DNA of 34,868 nt, from assembly GCA_022865265.1 (NCBI GenBank), contig JALIDO010000003.1:1-34868 (forward strand), given 5' to 3'. This document shows positions 27,831-34,868 of the stretch, piece by piece. A program made the position numbers and the translations under genes. Every line of letters starts with the position of its first letter. Within the stretch, counting starts at the first letter, position 1. This DNA comes from Candidatus Nanohalarchaeota archaeon QJJ-5 (GTDB taxonomy: Archaea > Nanohalarchaeota > Nanosalinia > Nanosalinales > Nanoanaerosalinaceae). The notes beneath the pieces are model-generated. The model saw nothing but the letters and a program-made list of their open reading frames with translations. It was not told the DNA's origin and did not search any database.

Positions 27831-30425
27831 TCAACGGTATTTTTCTTGTTCCCATTGTTCCGGCTGATTGTCCTGTTTCAGGGCAGCACGGCCGGTCCAT
27901 GTGTGATCTGGATTTTCCATGTACAGTAAGCCTTCAAGCGGGGCGAATGCGTTTTCAAAGATGGTCTCCCACTCATGATGCCATTCTTCATCGGTCAGTC
28001 CGAAGAACTTGAGGACGAGATAGTCTTTCAGGGTGAGGTCTTCGTTGCCTTTCTCATCGTATCGGTTCCAGGCCTCATCCACGTATTCGGTGGTCAGATC
28101 CTCAGGTGTGACGCCATGTTCGATCATATGCATCATCAGGCGCAGCATATAGGTGGACTCGGCTTTCTCTTCTCCGATCTCATACATCACGATGCTCGGT
28201 CGGTCATCGCGTTCACAGAAGCCACGTTCCACGAGAGAATACAGGTGTTCGAACACGATAGTGTCGCCACGTCTGATCGGCTGGTGATGGTGGCCGGTTT
28301 CGGAAAGTGCAGGATGCGTAACGTGTTGTTTTGTGATATAACGTCCATCACCATCTTCTAAACCTTCGAAATTATGTTCTTCATTGCCCTGGATTGTCCA
28401 GAGTGGATCAACGCCGTTCATGGCGAGATGTTCCATATCGATAGTACAGAACATGACATCATAGGTCTCACCGTTGATCTCGGTATTGTTGACCTCACGA
28501 CATACCTTGATGATGTCGCGTGGTTTCCAGAGTTTGCTCCGTCCTTCGCTCCCGACATTGTGCGATTCCCAGTCGAGTGTTAGTCCATGTTCATTCAGCA
28601 ACTCTACCAATGTCTTGTCTTGCCCGCGGCCGATGACCTGGGTGAACTGGCCCCACACATATGCAGCTGCACCGGCCGCATGGATCTTATCGTAGTCTTC
28701 TGAGTCTGCTAACTCGGCCAACCGTTCTTCGAAGGCATCCAGGTTATTCATACTGTATTCATCAGGATCGATGCCTGTGATCGCGTGCCATAACCGTTCG
28801 AGGTGCTCGTTGTCCGAAAACGGCATCCAGCGTGGCATGATCTCCCAGAAGATGTTCGATTCACGATTCATTTCATCCTGGAAGGCACCGCCACGGAAAT
28901 TGATGATATCACGGAACGCGACTTCGCCCTCGCTCATAGGATCATCATCTTTCATGAAGTAATCGCGGTTACCATCATACACTTCGGTCTCTTTCAGCCG
29001 TTCCTGTATCTCATCTTTCAGATCTTGCTTCAGTTTCTCATATACTGTATCCATTTCTTCATTGAGCCGTGCTTGGTCGCGTAGTGTATCGTCTCGGTCT
29101 TTCTCCCAGAATAGCTTCGGAATCATATGGATCCAGCGTGAGTTCGTATGCAGTTCTGGATCGAACCGAACCAGGGCCTGTGCGATGTTGGATCCTTCAC
29201 GATGCTTTTTCAGATCATCGAGACTCTCCGGGACATCCGATCTGACACCGGCCATCGTCTGGATAGCTGAGGTCCGGAGTTGATCATTCGTATTCTGAAA
29301 TCGCTGATTGTTCACATAGTGTTCCAAAAGGGATTCTTTATCTGGATACGCCTCATAGATGTCCTCACTATCGACAGCTGCCAGTGCACTTTGAAAGTCT
29401 TCCATGAGCTGGTTCAATTGATTCTGTAATAATTGTCTCTCCTGTGGGTCTGCTTCTGCAATCTGTTCCCGAAGATCATCCATCCTCGATTGGATGTCTT
29501 GGAGTTGTTCTTGGTGCTCGCCAGGTACGTTATTCACGAGGGCATCGATATCCATATCGTCTTGGTTACGGATGACTACTCTGCCAAGAGGAACGTCGAA
29601 TTCGACGATATCAGGGCGTTCATCTAATAGATATTTGAGATTTTCTACCATGTTTTCAGTTTCATCCAGATTGCTAACTGCTTCTAACATATCCTCTGTC
29701 AGATAACCGTCATCGCTCATGTGGTCGACGATGATCTTCCTTTGAAGGATGTTGAAGTCCGTATATCCTTCGATATCGTTTGCTATGCCCTGTAGTGTCT
29801 GGAAGTTATCTTTCAGTTCGCTTTCCCACAGATATTCCCGGAAGAAACTGACACGGAATTCTGGGCACTTGAAGATCCGTGACTCCATCATTTCGGTACC
29901 AAATGGATCGACTGACACTGATCCCGCCATGCGTTCTTCTCTTGCAGGGATTTCTGATTTCACGAGATGGGTATTGATACCATACACTGATTGCTGGTTC
30001 CCATTGACATCGGGTTCGCTTTCGATGGCGTCTTTGAAATCGCCCCAGGCATCGATGAAGTCATACATGAACTCATGACTGTAGTAAAAGCCCATCTGTT
30101 CGCGCTGTTCATAGTACGGGTTCGCATAATCGAACGGTATCTTGACCGGGAAATGGGCATCGAAGCTGAGTCCAAGCTGGCGTGACATCTGGATGAGCTG
30201 GTCCCATTCATTGTAGATCTGATTTGGGCCACCGAGATACATCTCGATGAAGCTCGCTCCCTGGTTCGAGGCCCAAGCGGCTCGTTTGTACAGTTCATCG
30301 GGAATGTCCGGGACGACATTCATGCCTGAAGAGACGGCAACGATATAGTTGAGATCCAGTGTCTTGTGCTGGTCCTGATTGATGAGTTGTCGGTACTGTT
30401 GTTTGACTTCTTGTTTTGTTGGCAT
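27831..30425 (-). CDS. endonuclease IV-like TIM-barrel protein with a large helical insertion
   Basis: An 864-residue protein. N-terminal (20-155) and C-terminal (about 590-770) parts together look like one xylose-isomerase/endonuclease IV barrel. Candidate metal ligands: H91 (DAHFP), H153 (INTHL), E620 (LDWESHN), D663 and H666 (IDMEHLAMNG, like Asp-x-x-His of Nfo), H701/H704, H712-H714 followed by IRRG (like DRH-x-x-IG), and E749 (VMYEIG). Between them is a helical insertion of about 430 residues with a coiled coil near 303-350. Endonuclease IV cleaves DNA at abasic sites; relatives isomerise sugars. Activity here is not predictable. It follows the 463-aa gene by 10 bp, so they are one operon and probably work together. 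Confidence 0.7.
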   Translation of the reverse strand: MPTKQEVKQQYRQLINQDQHKTLDLNYIVAVSSGMNVVPDIPDELYKRAAWASNQGASFIEMYLGGPNQIYNEWDQLIQMSRQLGLSFDAHFPVKIPFDYANPYYEQREQMGFYYSHEFMYDFIDAWGDFKDAIESEPDVNGNQQSVYGINTHLVKSEIPAREERMAGSVSVDPFGTEMMESRIFKCPEFRVSFFREYLWESELKDNFQTLQGIANDIEGYTDFNILQRKIIVDHMSDDGYLTEDMLEAVSNLDETENMVENLKYLLDERPDIVEFDVPLGRVVIRNQDDMDIDALVNNVPGEHQEQLQDIQSRMDDLREQIAEADPQERQLLQNQLNQLMEDFQSALAAVDSEDIYEAYPDKESLLEHYVNNQRFQNTNDQLRTSAIQTMAGVRSDVPESLDDLKKHREGSNIAQALVRFDPELHTNSRWIHMIPKLFWEKDRDDTLRDQARLNEEMDTVYEKLKQDLKDEIQERLKETEVYDGNRDYFMKDDDPMSEGEVAFRDIINFRGGAFQDEMNRESNIFWEIMPRWMPFSDNEHLERLWHAITGIDPDEYSMNNLDAFEERLAELADSEDYDKIHAAGAAAYVWGQFTQVIGRGQDKTLVELLNEHGLTLDWESHNVGSEGRSKLWKPRDIIKVCREVNNTEINGETYDVMFCTIDMEHLAMNGVDPLWTIQGNEEHNFEGLEDGDGRYITKQHVTHPALSETGHHHQPIRRGDTIVFEHLYSLVERGFCERDDRPSIVMYEIGEEKAESTYMLRLMMHMIEHGVTPEDLTTEYVDEAWNRYDEKGNEDLTLKDYLVLKFFGLTDEEWHHEWETIFENAFAPLEGLLYMENPDHTWTGRAALKQDNQPEQWEQEKYR

Positions 30426-30435
30426 CTGGTGTCAC

Positions 30436-31827
30436 CTACTTCATCACGTACAGTCCGACATCGTATTTCAGCGAGATGTAGAGGGCTGCTGATCCACCGA
30501 ATTTCGGCCCGAGAAGGCCTTCACGGAGATCGGATGGGTCAACATGATAGTACGCATCACCTTTGCCTGCCCAGAACAGGAGCCGTCGCTGGAGTTCATC
30601 GAGGAATGACGGATCATAGGGGGTATATTCCTTATCAGTATGTTTCTGGATATCTGGTGCAATATCGTCTCCCACATACTCGGTGATATATCGTTTGACC
30701 TCGTTCTTTCGTTCATCGATCTGTGGCTGGAAGACCTCCTGGAAGACATGTTCACAGACCACATACTCTTTGAAATTGATCTTCATGACCTCACCCCCCT
30801 GGCCCGGGGACTGTGGCTGTTCAGAGCCTCCGAGGGAAATGTGGGTCGCATCAAGGATAACGACGTCTCGGTGCGTGACGACATCTTCGCCTTCATCATT
30901 TTCTGCTTCCCGGACAGGTTTATGGCAGATGACTTTGATGCCCCGGACAGACGAGGAATATCCTTCCATCATGTACGGATCGGACATCTCTGAGACTTTC
31001 GCTTCGGGGTCGCCTTCCATCTGCTGGATGGTCTGTACATACGGTTTGATCCAGTTCTCGGTCTGTTCGATCGATGTTTCGACCGATTTCAACCGGCGTT
31101 TGACTTCCCGGACCTTATCCTCGATCGCATCGGCATACCGATCTTTCCATTGTTCATAGAGCTTCCACTTCTTCCTGAGGATTGCTTTTTCCTGTTCGGG
31201 AAGATCACTCAGGTGTCCATCGCCTTTGAGATCATCGAGTGATTCCATGCTGTAGAAATCAGCCGTGATCGATGGGAAAATATCATTAGCAGTCATCTGG
31301 AGGATGCTGGCACGACCGGTATGTTGGTCGACCTCATCGACGAAATCGCCTTTGAGTGCTTCTTCTTTCCGATCTTCGAAGTGTTCGAGTTTCTCCTCGA
31401 GCATCCGTTCATCGTGTTCCAGCAGTTCCTTTTTCTCATAGAGTTCCTCGAGGTTCGCCAATGTCCTGCCGATCTGTTGTTCGGCCTGCTGGCGGCGTTG
31501 CTCCATCTCATGGTGGAGCTGAGACCCGGGGTTCGCATGAAGCCATTCACCAACTTTGCTGACCTCATATCCGAATTGGGTATCGAGGAGATCGACAGTC
31601 GCAAGATATGTGTCCACAGGAAGCCCCTGTGTCGCATCTGAAACCTTGATAAGCCTATTATGTGGTTCATCATGTGTTGCCCCTACATATGGTTCGCCGC
31701 TCGGCTGATTTTCATCGATCCATTCTTGTGCGGCTCCTGGTCCTTCTGTCCGGGCGATTTCACGAATTTTATCGATATTTGCCGGGTAACATCCATGCAT
31801 ACATCGATCCTCGGCTCCTTTTGTCAT
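30436..31827 (-). CDS. coiled-coil protein paired with the TIM-barrel protein
   Basis: A 463-residue protein I do not recognise. Residues 1-100 hold a small N-terminal domain (a CMHGCYP segment, then GAAQEWIDENQPSGEPYVG). Residues 103-156 and 210-270 are strong heptad-rich coiled coils. The C-terminal 180 residues form a mixed domain with a VVILDATHISLGG strand and a FKEYVVCEHVFQEVF helix. The layout suggests an elongated dimer acting as a scaffold or specificity subunit. The likely AT box ctaaataac (reverse strand, 31847-31855) is about 24 bp upstream, and a GGTGAG lies close to the ATG. It is first in the order 463 aa - TIM barrel - nucleotidyltransferase - trm1. Confidence 0.65.
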   Translation of the reverse strand: MTKGAEDRCMHGCYPANIDKIREIARTEGPGAAQEWIDENQPSGEPYVGATHDEPHNRLIKVSDATQGLPVDTYLATVDLLDTQFGYEVSKVGEWLHANPGSQLHHEMEQRRQQAEQQIGRTLANLEELYEKKELLEHDERMLEEKLEHFEDRKEEALKGDFVDEVDQHTGRASILQMTANDIFPSITADFYSMESLDDLKGDGHLSDLPEQEKAILRKKWKLYEQWKDRYADAIEDKVREVKRRLKSVETSIEQTENWIKPYVQTIQQMEGDPEAKVSEMSDPYMMEGYSSSVRGIKVICHKPVREAENDEGEDVVTHRDVVILDATHISLGGSEQPQSPGQGGEVMKINFKEYVVCEHVFQEVFQPQIDERKNEVKRYITEYVGDDIAPDIQKHTDKEYTPYDPSFLDELQRRLLFWAGKGDAYYHVDPSDLREGLLGPKFGGSAALYISLKYDVGLYVMK

Positions 31828-32044: not shown

Positions 32045-32743
32045 ATGGGACTCGTGGACGATATCAAGGATAAAGTCGGAGATGAGAATACTGGGTCAGA
32101 CTCACAGGTTCGACGCCCACCAAAGAAACCTGGACAGGATAACAACACTAACAGAACCAGACAACAGGGATCACAGCAGTCACAGACTGGTCAGCGTCGC
32201 GGATCAAACCAGCGACAGGGCCAGAGCCGCGGGCAACAACAGAATCAGCGCGGTGGTTCCCAGCATCAAGGACGATCTGGTGGGCAGAATCAACGCCAAC
32301 AGTCCTCCCACCAATCACAGCAATCATCTCAGCCACGTCGTGGGCCTGGCGCAGAACAGGGGCCGCCTGACAGCCAGGGGCCGGACAGTCTCTCAGCACC
32401 AGGTCCGGCAGAGAATTCATCGGGCTCAGGCCGCGGTTCAGCAAATCCAGGTCCGACGGCGAACACATCACGTGGGCCGGAAGGTGGTCTCGATGATCTC
32501 GATGATCTTGGGTCCGCAGATGATCTTGGACAGAGTGAATCACCACCGGGTAATAGTCGGAGCCCTGAGGCATCTCTCAGAGATGATCCTGGTCCGGGTA
32601 ATGATATCACGCCGCCAGGGATGGATACCGATCGTGGATCATCAAGCGGCGAGCCGGACATGAGTCAGTTACAACAGCAGAATCAACAGATCATAAACCT
32701 TCTTGAAGATATTCGTGATGCACTGGAGCGACAACCGCGATGA
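32045..32743 (+). CDS. disordered Gln/Arg/Gly-rich protein with conserved end motifs (paralog A)
   Basis: A 232-residue protein with almost no hydrophobic core. It starts with a short amphipathic motif (MGLVDDIKDKVGDE), continues with about 100 residues rich in Gln, Ser, Arg, Gly and Asn that are not acidic, then a Pro/Gly/Asp-rich part with LDDLDDLGSADDLG, and ends in a hydrophobic helix (LQQQNQQIINLLEDIRDAL). The same start and end patterns recur in the next two genes. The prion-like middle is odd in a salt-in proteome. No family recognised; a phase-separating or multivalent binding role is inference. It overlaps the next gene by 4 bp. Confidence 0.65.
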   Translation: MGLVDDIKDKVGDENTGSDSQVRRPPKKPGQDNNTNRTRQQGSQQSQTGQRRGSNQRQGQSRGQQQNQRGGSQHQGRSGGQNQRQQSSHQSQQSSQPRRGPGAEQGPPDSQGPDSLSAPGPAENSSGSGRGSANPGPTANTSRGPEGGLDDLDDLGSADDLGQSESPPGNSRSPEASLRDDPGPGNDITPPGMDTDRGSSSGEPDMSQLQQQNQQIINLLEDIRDALERQPR

Positions 32744-33090
32744 AGATCTTTGATAAACTCAATGACGACAATGAGGATGAAGAAGTAGAGCTCAAGCCAG
32801 ATACGCGGTTGAAAGATGAGGTGGCAGCCCGCACACAGGATCGGGGATCATCATCGACTTCGACAGATGATGAAAGCGAGTCCCTTCTACCTGGTGCTGT
32901 TGGTGGTAGCGATACTACATCGGATCGTGGACGTGTATCCTCATCCACAAAGACGGATGGTGATCTCGAGGAACAGATCAAGACCGTGATCGAGCAGAAT
33001 GAACGTATAATCGAACTGCTCGAGACCATCTCATCCGTGTCCTCGGGATCGACGAATCGTTCTAGTGATGGCAAGGACGAATTATGGTGA
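32740..33090 (+). CDS. disordered acidic protein with conserved end motifs (paralog B)
   Basis: A 116-residue protein. The start MKIFDKLNDDNEDEE resembles the first residues of its neighbours (Met, two to three hydrophobic residues, Asp, then a lysine and acidic run). The middle is Ser/Thr/Asp-rich and disordered. Near the end is a helix, EEQIKTVIEQNERIIELLETI, with the shared Gln-Asn-x-x-Ile-Ile-x-Leu-Leu pattern, followed by a short Ser/Gly-rich tail. Its ATG overlaps the previous stop (ATGA), so translation is coupled. Function unknown. Confidence 0.65.
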   Translation: MKIFDKLNDDNEDEEVELKPDTRLKDEVAARTQDRGSSSTSTDDESESLLPGAVGGSDTTSDRGRVSSSTKTDGDLEEQIKTVIEQNERIIELLETISSVSSGSTNRSSDGKDELW

Positions 33091-33102
33091 CGGCTGATAG
33101 TC

Positions 33103-33576
33103 ATGTCGTTTTATGATAGTGTCAAAGATCGTGTGCGTGATGATGAGACAGATGAAGACGATGATACGGAATCAAGTGGTGGTACAATGGCATTCGATGA
33201 ACTAGTGAAGAAAGCAGAACAACAAGACGATGATGAGGAAGAACAACAAGATGATACAGAGATCGAGGACTTTTCCGGTGGTGGCAGTGGTGGATCAAAG
33301 GATTATGGAGATCCATCGAGCATCGAGCTGAATGAAGAGACAGAACCACAGGCGGGAGATGGGTCGAGTGAGCCCTCATCGTCTGAGGACAAGGACGATG
33401 ATGAGGTCGAAATCCATAGTGATGGTTCTGTTACACCCCCCGGAGAGCAAGAACAGCATGAGCAAGAGCAGAAACCTGTTGATGGAGATGGTGATGTCAT
33501 CGCACTGCTCCAGGAAATCCGTAATCAGAACGACCAGATTATCAGTGTACTTCGCGATATCCGCGAACGCATGTAA
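33103..33576 (+). CDS. disordered very acidic protein with conserved end motifs (paralog C)
   Basis: A 157-residue protein. It begins MSFYDSVKDRVRDDE, close to paralog A (hydrophobic pair, Asp, Ile/Val, Lys-Asp, Val/Arg, Asp-Asp/Glu). A second amphipathic segment, MAFDELVKKAEQ (residues 27-38), is followed by about 80 disordered residues rich in Asp, Glu, Gln, Gly and Ser. It ends in the same helix type, IALLQEIRNQNDQIISVLRDI, and stops four residues later. It lies 12 bp after paralog B and just before alaX. No family recognised; assignment to a group with A and B rests on the ends only. Confidence 0.65.
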   Translation: MSFYDSVKDRVRDDETDEDDDTESSGGTMAFDELVKKAEQQDDDEEEQQDDTEIEDFSGGGSGGSKDYGDPSSIELNEETEPQAGDGSSEPSSSEDKDDDEVEIHSDGSVTPPGEQEQHEQEQKPVDGDGDVIALLQEIRNQNDQIISVLRDIRERM

Positions 33577-33587
33577 GGGTGTTTTTA

Positions 33588-34301
33588 GTGACAGAACGGA
33601 TCTATATGGAAGATTGCTATGCTGAGACGGTCTCGACACAGGTCGAAGCTATAAGGGCTGGTGGTATTGTCCTCAGTGAGACTGTTTTTTACCCAGAGGG
33701 CGGTGGTCAGCCTGCAGATCAGGGCGTGATCAACGTCGGTGGGACGTCCATCCAGGTTACAGACGTTTCCGTCGATCACGGGGAAATTCTCCATCATGTC
33801 GAATCGACAGATCCAATCACGGAGGGGGATGATGTGGATGCGAGGATCGACTGGGAGCGTCGTCATATGTTGATGCGTATGCATACAGCCCAGCATCTTC
33901 TCAGTGCTGTTGTTCTGGATATGTTTGATGCAAAAACTGTCGGTAATCAGATCCATCCGTCATATTCCCGTATTGATTTCGAGCCGGTAAATTTCAGTCA
34001 AAAGGATCTCGATCGGATCGAACGTCGTTGTAATGCCTTGATTGAAGAAGAACGGTCTGTATCGATCTATGAAGAAGACCGGGAAACTGTTGTTGAGAAA
34101 CTGCCAGTAGGACGATCGAACCTCGACCTCATACCAGATCATATCGATCCGTTGCGGGTTGTCGAGATTGAAGGTCTCGATATCTGTCCCTGTGGTGGGA
34201 CACATGTGAGCAATCTCGATGAGATTGGTCGATTCATCATCGAAGACAGGAAAAGCAAAGGCGAGGACATCGATCGTATCGAGTTCAGTCTCGATGCATG
34301 A
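33588..34301 (+). CDS. alaX: alanyl-tRNA editing protein AlaX
   Basis: A 237-residue free-standing editing protein that hydrolyses Ser- or Gly-tRNA(Ala), homologous to the editing domain of AlaRS. Marks: TERIYMEDCYAETV at the start, the family's FYPEGGGQPADQG, the zinc-binding His-x3-His (H99, H103 in HTAQHLL), and CPCGGTHV (C202, H206). The length fits the medium AlaX-M type with the glycine-rich N-terminal domain. GTG 33588 is preferred because relatives start at TER; GTG 33579 is an in-frame alternative. It belongs to the disordered-protein operon and overlaps the next gene by 8 bp. Confidence 0.9.
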   Translation: MTERIYMEDCYAETVSTQVEAIRAGGIVLSETVFYPEGGGQPADQGVINVGGTSIQVTDVSVDHGEILHHVESTDPITEGDDVDARIDWERRHMLMRMHTAQHLLSAVVLDMFDAKTVGNQIHPSYSRIDFEPVNFSQKDLDRIERRCNALIEEERSVSIYEEDRETVVEKLPVGRSNLDLIPDHIDPLRVVEIEGLDICPCGGTHVSNLDEIGRFIIEDRKSKGEDIDRIEFSLDA

Positions 34302-34868
34302 CTTCAAGGCACTTGTGCGGTCAGTGTGGGAACGCAGTTTTGATGGGGAAAACCGTCGGTACCACCGATTCAGAACAGCAGATAGCGGATCGACACTGGT
34401 TGCCGATTGTATTGGATCAAATCTCCGATGTGCCCACGAGTGGGGATGGTGTGAAGGGATTCTTGATGATCCATCAGCTGGCCGACTTGTATCGCCTGAT
34501 GAGATCGTGAACCGAGCTAAGGACTGTGATGCAACGGCAGTACGTGTCACAGGGATGGAACCCGTGATGCATGATCGTCATCTCCTCCAGCTGGCAGAGA
34601 CCATTCCTGAGAGCATGACCTTGCGGATCGAAACCAACGGGATGTTACTTGGTGGAGCATACATGCGTGCTCTGACTGATCGCTGTGATTGTCATGTCCG
34701 GCTCTCGTTCAAGGGAAGCGATCCGGAACAGTTCAGCAAGCTGGCTAGGGTAGATCAACGGTATTTTCAGAATCAGGTCCAGTCATTCCACGCGATACGG
34801 AAAGCTGAGTGCAGCATTGAGCTGGCTCTTGCTGGTGTCTATGATGAGGAAGATGCAAAAAAGCTTGG
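34294..34868 (+). CDS. degenerate radical-SAM family protein (3' end beyond window)
   Basis: An open frame from ATG 34294 runs to the window edge (191 codons, no stop). It matches an archaeal radical-SAM group at several places: RRYHRFRTADSG, then DCIGSNLRCAHEWGWC (38-53), VRVTGMEP (83-90), LRIETNG (110-116) and HVRLSFKGSDPEQFSKL. The group normally has Cys-x3-Cys-x2-Cys (CNLRCxxC) for its 4Fe-4S cluster. Here the first is Ser42 and the third is Glu49; only C46 remains, and the usual GGEP is GMEP. It is therefore probably not a classical radical enzyme. The frame is intact, so it is not simply decaying. It overlaps alaX by 8 bp. Confidence 0.75.
   Translation, partial: MHDFKALVRSVWERSFDGENRRYHRFRTADSGSTLVADCIGSNLRCAHEWGWCEGILDDPSAGRLVSPDEIVNRAKDCDATAVRVTGMEPVMHDRHLLQLAETIPESMTLRIETNGMLLGGAYMRALTDRCDCHVRLSFKGSDPEQFSKLARVDQRYFQNQVQSFHAIRKAECSIELALAGVYDEEDAKKL

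Follow-up and report, generated by a model that had tools for sequence, protein, structure and literature searches.

A conserved radical-SAM homologue with a possibly remodelled cluster site in a small clade of Nanohaloarchaeota

Background

The hallmark that identifies radical-SAM enzymes is a motif of three cysteines. Its CX3CX2C form is inessential for a SAM-linked [4Fe-4S] cluster, as shown by ThiC, HmdB, QueE and Dph1-Dph2 (PMC4389238, PMC11048331). HmdB works with CX5CX2C spacing, QueE with CX14CX2C (PMC4389238), and Dph1-Dph2 is a working radical-SAM enzyme with distant cysteines (PMC11048331). Going by its name, the haloarchaeal 'pseudo-SAM/SPASM' family TIGR04347 of NCBIfam, a 390-position model that includes a SPASM part, is a radical-SAM homologue of salt-loving archaea that is regarded as non-radical. 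No match to TIGR04347 (cut-off 525 bits) was obtained in the genome concerned. Searches of the pseudo-radical-SAM literature yielded nothing useful.

The closest relatives come from an archaeal family whose stand-alone radical-SAM proteins are ~250 residues long and show the pattern RKYYRFR...ADxxGCxLxCxxCW. A family-profile search recovered full-length relatives across many archaeal families, and no NCBIfam equivalog matched this family above its cut-off. Canonical members are also carried by two IMG/VR contigs classed as viral (L073 and L074; viral-contig scan).

The gene under study probably lies in QJJ-5_bin.20, a Nanohaloarchaeota assembly from the Qi Jiao Jing Lake salt crust that has been assigned to a proposed order, Nucleotidisoterales (PMC9563170, Table 1). 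The window, that is, the whole stretch of DNA analysed, is one entire contig of 34,868 bp from a genome of 701,335 bp in 48 contigs, 80% complete.

Results

A radical-SAM homologue with an altered cluster site

The last gene on the contig starts with an ATG at 34294 and its frame is open up to the contig end, in agreement with the intact frame described in an earlier note on this DNA. The translated protein matches Pfam Radical_SAM (PF04055) at 31.4 bits, above the cut-off of 29.5, and a full-length ortholog from QJJ-9_bin.46 matches at 59.0 bits. The relevant features are as follows.

33579..34301, forward strand: stand-alone alanyl-tRNA editing protein of the alaX type, overlapping the next gene from upstream; order kept in QJJ-9
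34294..34868, forward strand: radical-SAM-fold gene, 191 codons visible, 3' part cut off by the contig end
34354..34374, forward strand: RRYHRFR (R21-R27), the archaeal family's N-terminal signature, RKYYRFR
34408..34410, forward strand: C39, first Cys of C-x6-C-x6-C; Cys also in 15/33 canonical members
34417..34419, forward strand: S42, at the first cluster cysteine position, Cys in 33/33 others; TCA, in QJJ-9 AGC
34429..34431, forward strand: C46, the sole canonical cluster cysteine retained and the middle Cys of C-x6-C-x6-C
34438..34440, forward strand: E49, at the third cluster cysteine position (Cys in 33/33 others), subject to placement of a 2-residue insertion
34450..34452, forward strand: C53, third Cys of C-x6-C-x6-C, within the stretch bearing the 2-residue insertion found only in the variants
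34552..34563, forward strand: GMEP (G87-P90), a GGEP-type SAM motif; the family is variable at the second position
34630..34641, forward strand: ETNG (E113-G116), family-conserved motif kept; DTNG in QJJ-9
34699..34716, forward strand: RLSFKG (R136-G141), family-conserved R/S/K motif kept

The cluster site translates as D-C39-I-G-S42-N-L-R-C46-A-H-E49-W-G-W-C53. Thus the S-x3-C-x2-E arrangement and C-x6-C-x6-C spacing that the earlier note placed at 34408-34452 (codons 39-53), and GMEP at codons 87-90, are all correct by translation.

The window protein and its QJJ-9 ortholog (the two variants) were aligned with 33 canonical family members, which share 22-37% identity with the variants; the closest of them matched the window protein at E 2e-25. 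Likeness extends to length, the N-terminal signature (R-K-Y-Y-R-F-R in nearly all 33 members, kept as RRYHRFR in the variants), GxEP, ETNG, RVSxKG, H96 and overall order. At the 41 positions conserved in >=85% of the 33 relatives, the window protein keeps 27, among them R21, Y23, R25, R27, D38, G41, C46, G87, E89, P90, H96, E113, N115, G116, R136, K140 and F147. The protein is a radical-SAM homologue that keeps the fold and the greater part of the pocket. It is not a radical-SAM enzyme in the strict sense, because the defining C-x3-C-x2-C motif is absent anywhere in either variant protein.

The earlier note took GMEP for a lost SAM contact. Among the 33 members, GxEP has N (17), C (7), A (6) or G (3) at its second position, so GMEP is ordinary for this family and that part of the earlier reading falls away.

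The variants differ from the family at the cluster site itself. All three cluster cysteines are Cys in 33/33 other members, and the variants retain one; they carry instead a 2-residue insertion and C-x6-C-x6-C, which is present in both and in no other family member compared, and have lost the YGG preceding the site. The residue opposite the third cysteine depends on where the 2-residue gap is placed, being E49 in alignments A1 and A3 and G51 in A5. None of the alignments, however, brings back C-x3-C-x2-C. In a tree the two variants form one supported group (100/99) on a long stem, which leaves the position of their clade inside the family unsettled.

The altered site is conserved in a second genus

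The closest relative was sought in 60 related genomes, and the best match came from another genus of the same family (QJJ-9_bin.46, G001). This ortholog, at L020:9968-10711 on contig JALIDQ010000012.1, encodes 247 aa from its ATG and is intact to the stop. It shares 51% identity overall with the window protein, and over residues 35-57 the two are identical at 21/23 positions, including C39, S42, C46, E49 and C53; given the overall identity, a best window of this quality was matched in 36 of 20,000 shuffles. Different codons are used for 11 of the 21 identical residues. Ser42 is encoded by TCA in the window gene and by AGC in QJJ-9, indicating that the serine was either kept or arrived at despite a switch of codon family.

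Since dS is saturated, dN/dS was expressed only via pN and pS. The nonsynonymous difference (pN) was 0.10 over residues 35-57 versus 0.37 for the whole gene, with synonymous differences near saturation in both and changes within the site mostly synonymous. Constraint on the gene (51% identity between the two genomes) resembles that on its syntenic neighbours AlaX (45%) and Trm1 (48%), and the order trm1, alaX, radical-SAM-fold gene is identical in both. Shared substitutions and purifying selection, named beforehand as support for the earlier interpretation, were thus both found.

The window protein contains seven cysteines and the QJJ-9 ortholog seven, of which five fall in the aligned part. 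Those that coincide are exactly C39, C46 and C53 (chance 3e-4). The variant-bearing sample comprises two genera, both from a single lake. When 84,980 genomes were scanned and ~420 archaeal genomes searched, QJJ-9 was the only further variant member obtained. Together these data suggest, at the level of sequence, that the protein is functional and conserved, from a small Nanohaloarchaeota clade, and not a broken gene.

Gene neighbourhood and genomic context

The stop of the upstream alaX overlaps the ATG of the radical-SAM-fold gene by 8 bases, and an overlap is found in both genomes. Genes like alaX were present in 28/28 Nanohaloarchaeota genomes searched, and in the two of these 28 whose alaX flanks were read there was no radical-SAM neighbour. 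The pairing hence seems peculiar to the variant clade, and AlaX as an ancient partner was rejected. No recurrent neighbour of canonical members was seen in the flanks read.

Other genes nearby share the conserved order. Three adjoining acidic, low-complexity genes at 32045-33576 (forward strand) have similar tails (QNQQIINLLEDIRDALE, QNERIIELLETI and QNDQIISVLRDIRERM) and no Pfam match, and their order is kept in QJJ-9 at 33-39% identity. Two large proteins of 864 and 463 aa, encoded at 27831-30425 and 30436-31827 (both reverse strand), also have no Pfam match and are found in the same order in QJJ-9 at 51-53% identity. On the QJJ-9_bin.46 contig that carries the ortholog, the aRF1 release factor (L020:11535-14354, reverse strand) is split directly after GGQ by an intein of ~510 residues. 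The intein contains LAGLIDADG parts, with a helix-turn-helix domain embedded in it (Pfam Intein_splicing, LAGLIDADG_3, HTH_3).

The cellular context is suggestive only for the cluster question. SufBD Fe-S assembly genes were not found in genomes G000-G004, G005 and G008 and were present in all 21 other genomes of the phylum. Three small genomes of the same family (G002, G003 and G004; e.g. L097-L099) each hold 14-17 Radical_SAM genes, often several per contig, compared with 1-5 in most of their relatives.

Predicted structure

An AlphaFold2 model of the QJJ-9 ortholog had a mean pLDDT of 71 and a pTM of 0.67. Its best solved matches were radical-SAM enzymes (BlsE, SuiB, viperin) at E 3e-5, with a TM of only 0.4-0.5. 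The top matches, whether by sequence profile or by fold, included BlsE (PDB 7vob), MoaA, viperin and PFL-activating enzyme; these have a canonical cluster and ~15-25% identity, and shared function is not implied.

The ortholog and a canonical relative were modelled from the same, equally shallow alignments of four sequences. Where the canonical relative was modelled with a loop at the old cluster site, the variant was given a helix, with low confidence in both cases, and this difference is only a hint of a remodelled site. Ortholog residues C57 and C64 (C46 and C53 of the window protein) were placed on one helix seven residues apart, again at low confidence. Such a predicted spacing would be awkward for a single cluster and was counted against a metal site.

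Discussion

The altered site points to one of two things, a metal site that has been rebuilt or a binding protein that does no catalysis. The reading we favour, which we put at slightly under an even call, is that this conserved protein of radical-SAM fold has a cluster site that was remodelled and probably binds metal. Its ancestor would be a member of the archaeal family of stand-alone radical-SAM proteins of ~250 residues. It would have kept the radical-SAM barrel, along with most of the residues thought likely to contact SAM and substrate, and had the cluster loop rebuilt by loss of two of three ligand cysteines, insertion of two residues and fixation of C39-x6-C46-x6-C53. These cysteines, perhaps with S42, H48 or E49, may bind a metal or Fe-S cluster with an altered geometry, and the metal site would adjoin bound SAM, which might still be used or sensed there. 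The specific proposal that C-x3-C-x2-C was rebuilt as C-x6-C-x6-C and still binds a metal or Fe-S cluster beside SAM is more tentative, falling well short of even. The substitutions, their presence in both genera, purifying selection, the conservation of exactly three cysteines and the kept fold and pocket signatures are observed, whereas binding of metal or of SAM, chemistry of any kind and a functional link with AlaX are inferred.

The loop still has three conserved cysteines, and C53 may be seen as the old third cysteine shifted by four residues. This unchanged number would make a rebuilt metal site more likely than plain loss. The earlier note had allowed for a different metal site at C39, C46 and C53, and that idea gains weight since these are the only cysteines conserved between the two variants. 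The variants have a conserved, relocated cysteine trio, which would make them comparable to the non-canonical radical-SAM enzymes if it bound a [4Fe-4S] cluster. They differ in that CX6CX6C was found in none of the enzymes located (ThiC, HmdB, QueE, Dph1-Dph2) and in that HmdB and QueE keep the CX2C half, whereas the variants have lost it. Conservation of C39 need not imply ligation, because 15/33 members, all canonical, also have it, and the limit of two variant sequences was counted against the rebuilt-site reading.

A close second, credible though doubtful, is a metal-free pseudoenzyme that lost its cluster for good and kept the fold as a SAM-, nucleotide- or protein-binding scaffold, possibly as a partner of AlaX. 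Two cluster ligands are gone in both genera while the signatures of the SAM and substrate pocket are retained, and TIGR04347 offers a named precedent for such losses. A second, intact paralog had been sought, and the gene is the sole Radical_SAM match in the 80%-complete assembly, which also favours this view, as does the failure to find a SufBD-type Fe-S assembly gene in the five genomes of this family when families f3 and f4 have one. However, G001 likewise gave no SufBD hit and yet holds four further Radical_SAM genes, and G002-G004 hold 14-17, so that a genome lacking SufBD need not lack clusters. Moreover, the only conserved cysteines are the three of the old cluster loop, and no part of the protein is more conserved than this loop, which exceeds what a cluster-free scaffold would need. 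It is improbable that these cysteines instead serve a non-metal role, as a disulfide or catalytic thiol on a SAM-independent barrel: cysteine conservation alone cannot separate metal binding from either, but the sequence as read shows no evident export signal, the conserved number is odd (three) and the SAM-pocket residues are kept.

Least probable by far is that the gene is decaying or reflects a sequencing or assembly error. Such artefacts might be expected of a metagenome-assembled, 80%-complete genome with the gene cut by a contig end, and of an ortholog contig whose stated coverage is as low as 2.6x. Against this, the frame is intact in both genomes, within-site changes are mostly synonymous, and identical substitutions (S42 and E49) occur on a separately binned contig from another genus at 49% amino-acid divergence. 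Close homologues with all three cysteines would have pointed to an error in the window; the closest one, from QJJ-9, has the same altered site, and sequencing error and pseudogene status were rejected on that ground. As a whole, the earlier interpretation of the locus is partly supported.

In this clade the motif that identifies radical-SAM enzymes has been replaced under strong selection in an otherwise canonical family, with relatives close enough to compare, which makes a tractable case. One can ask here if a cluster may move elsewhere or be done without, and what role the radical-SAM fold has once it is gone. The case is also a warning that, in reduced archaeal genomes, radical chemistry does not follow from a match to Pfam Radical_SAM by itself.
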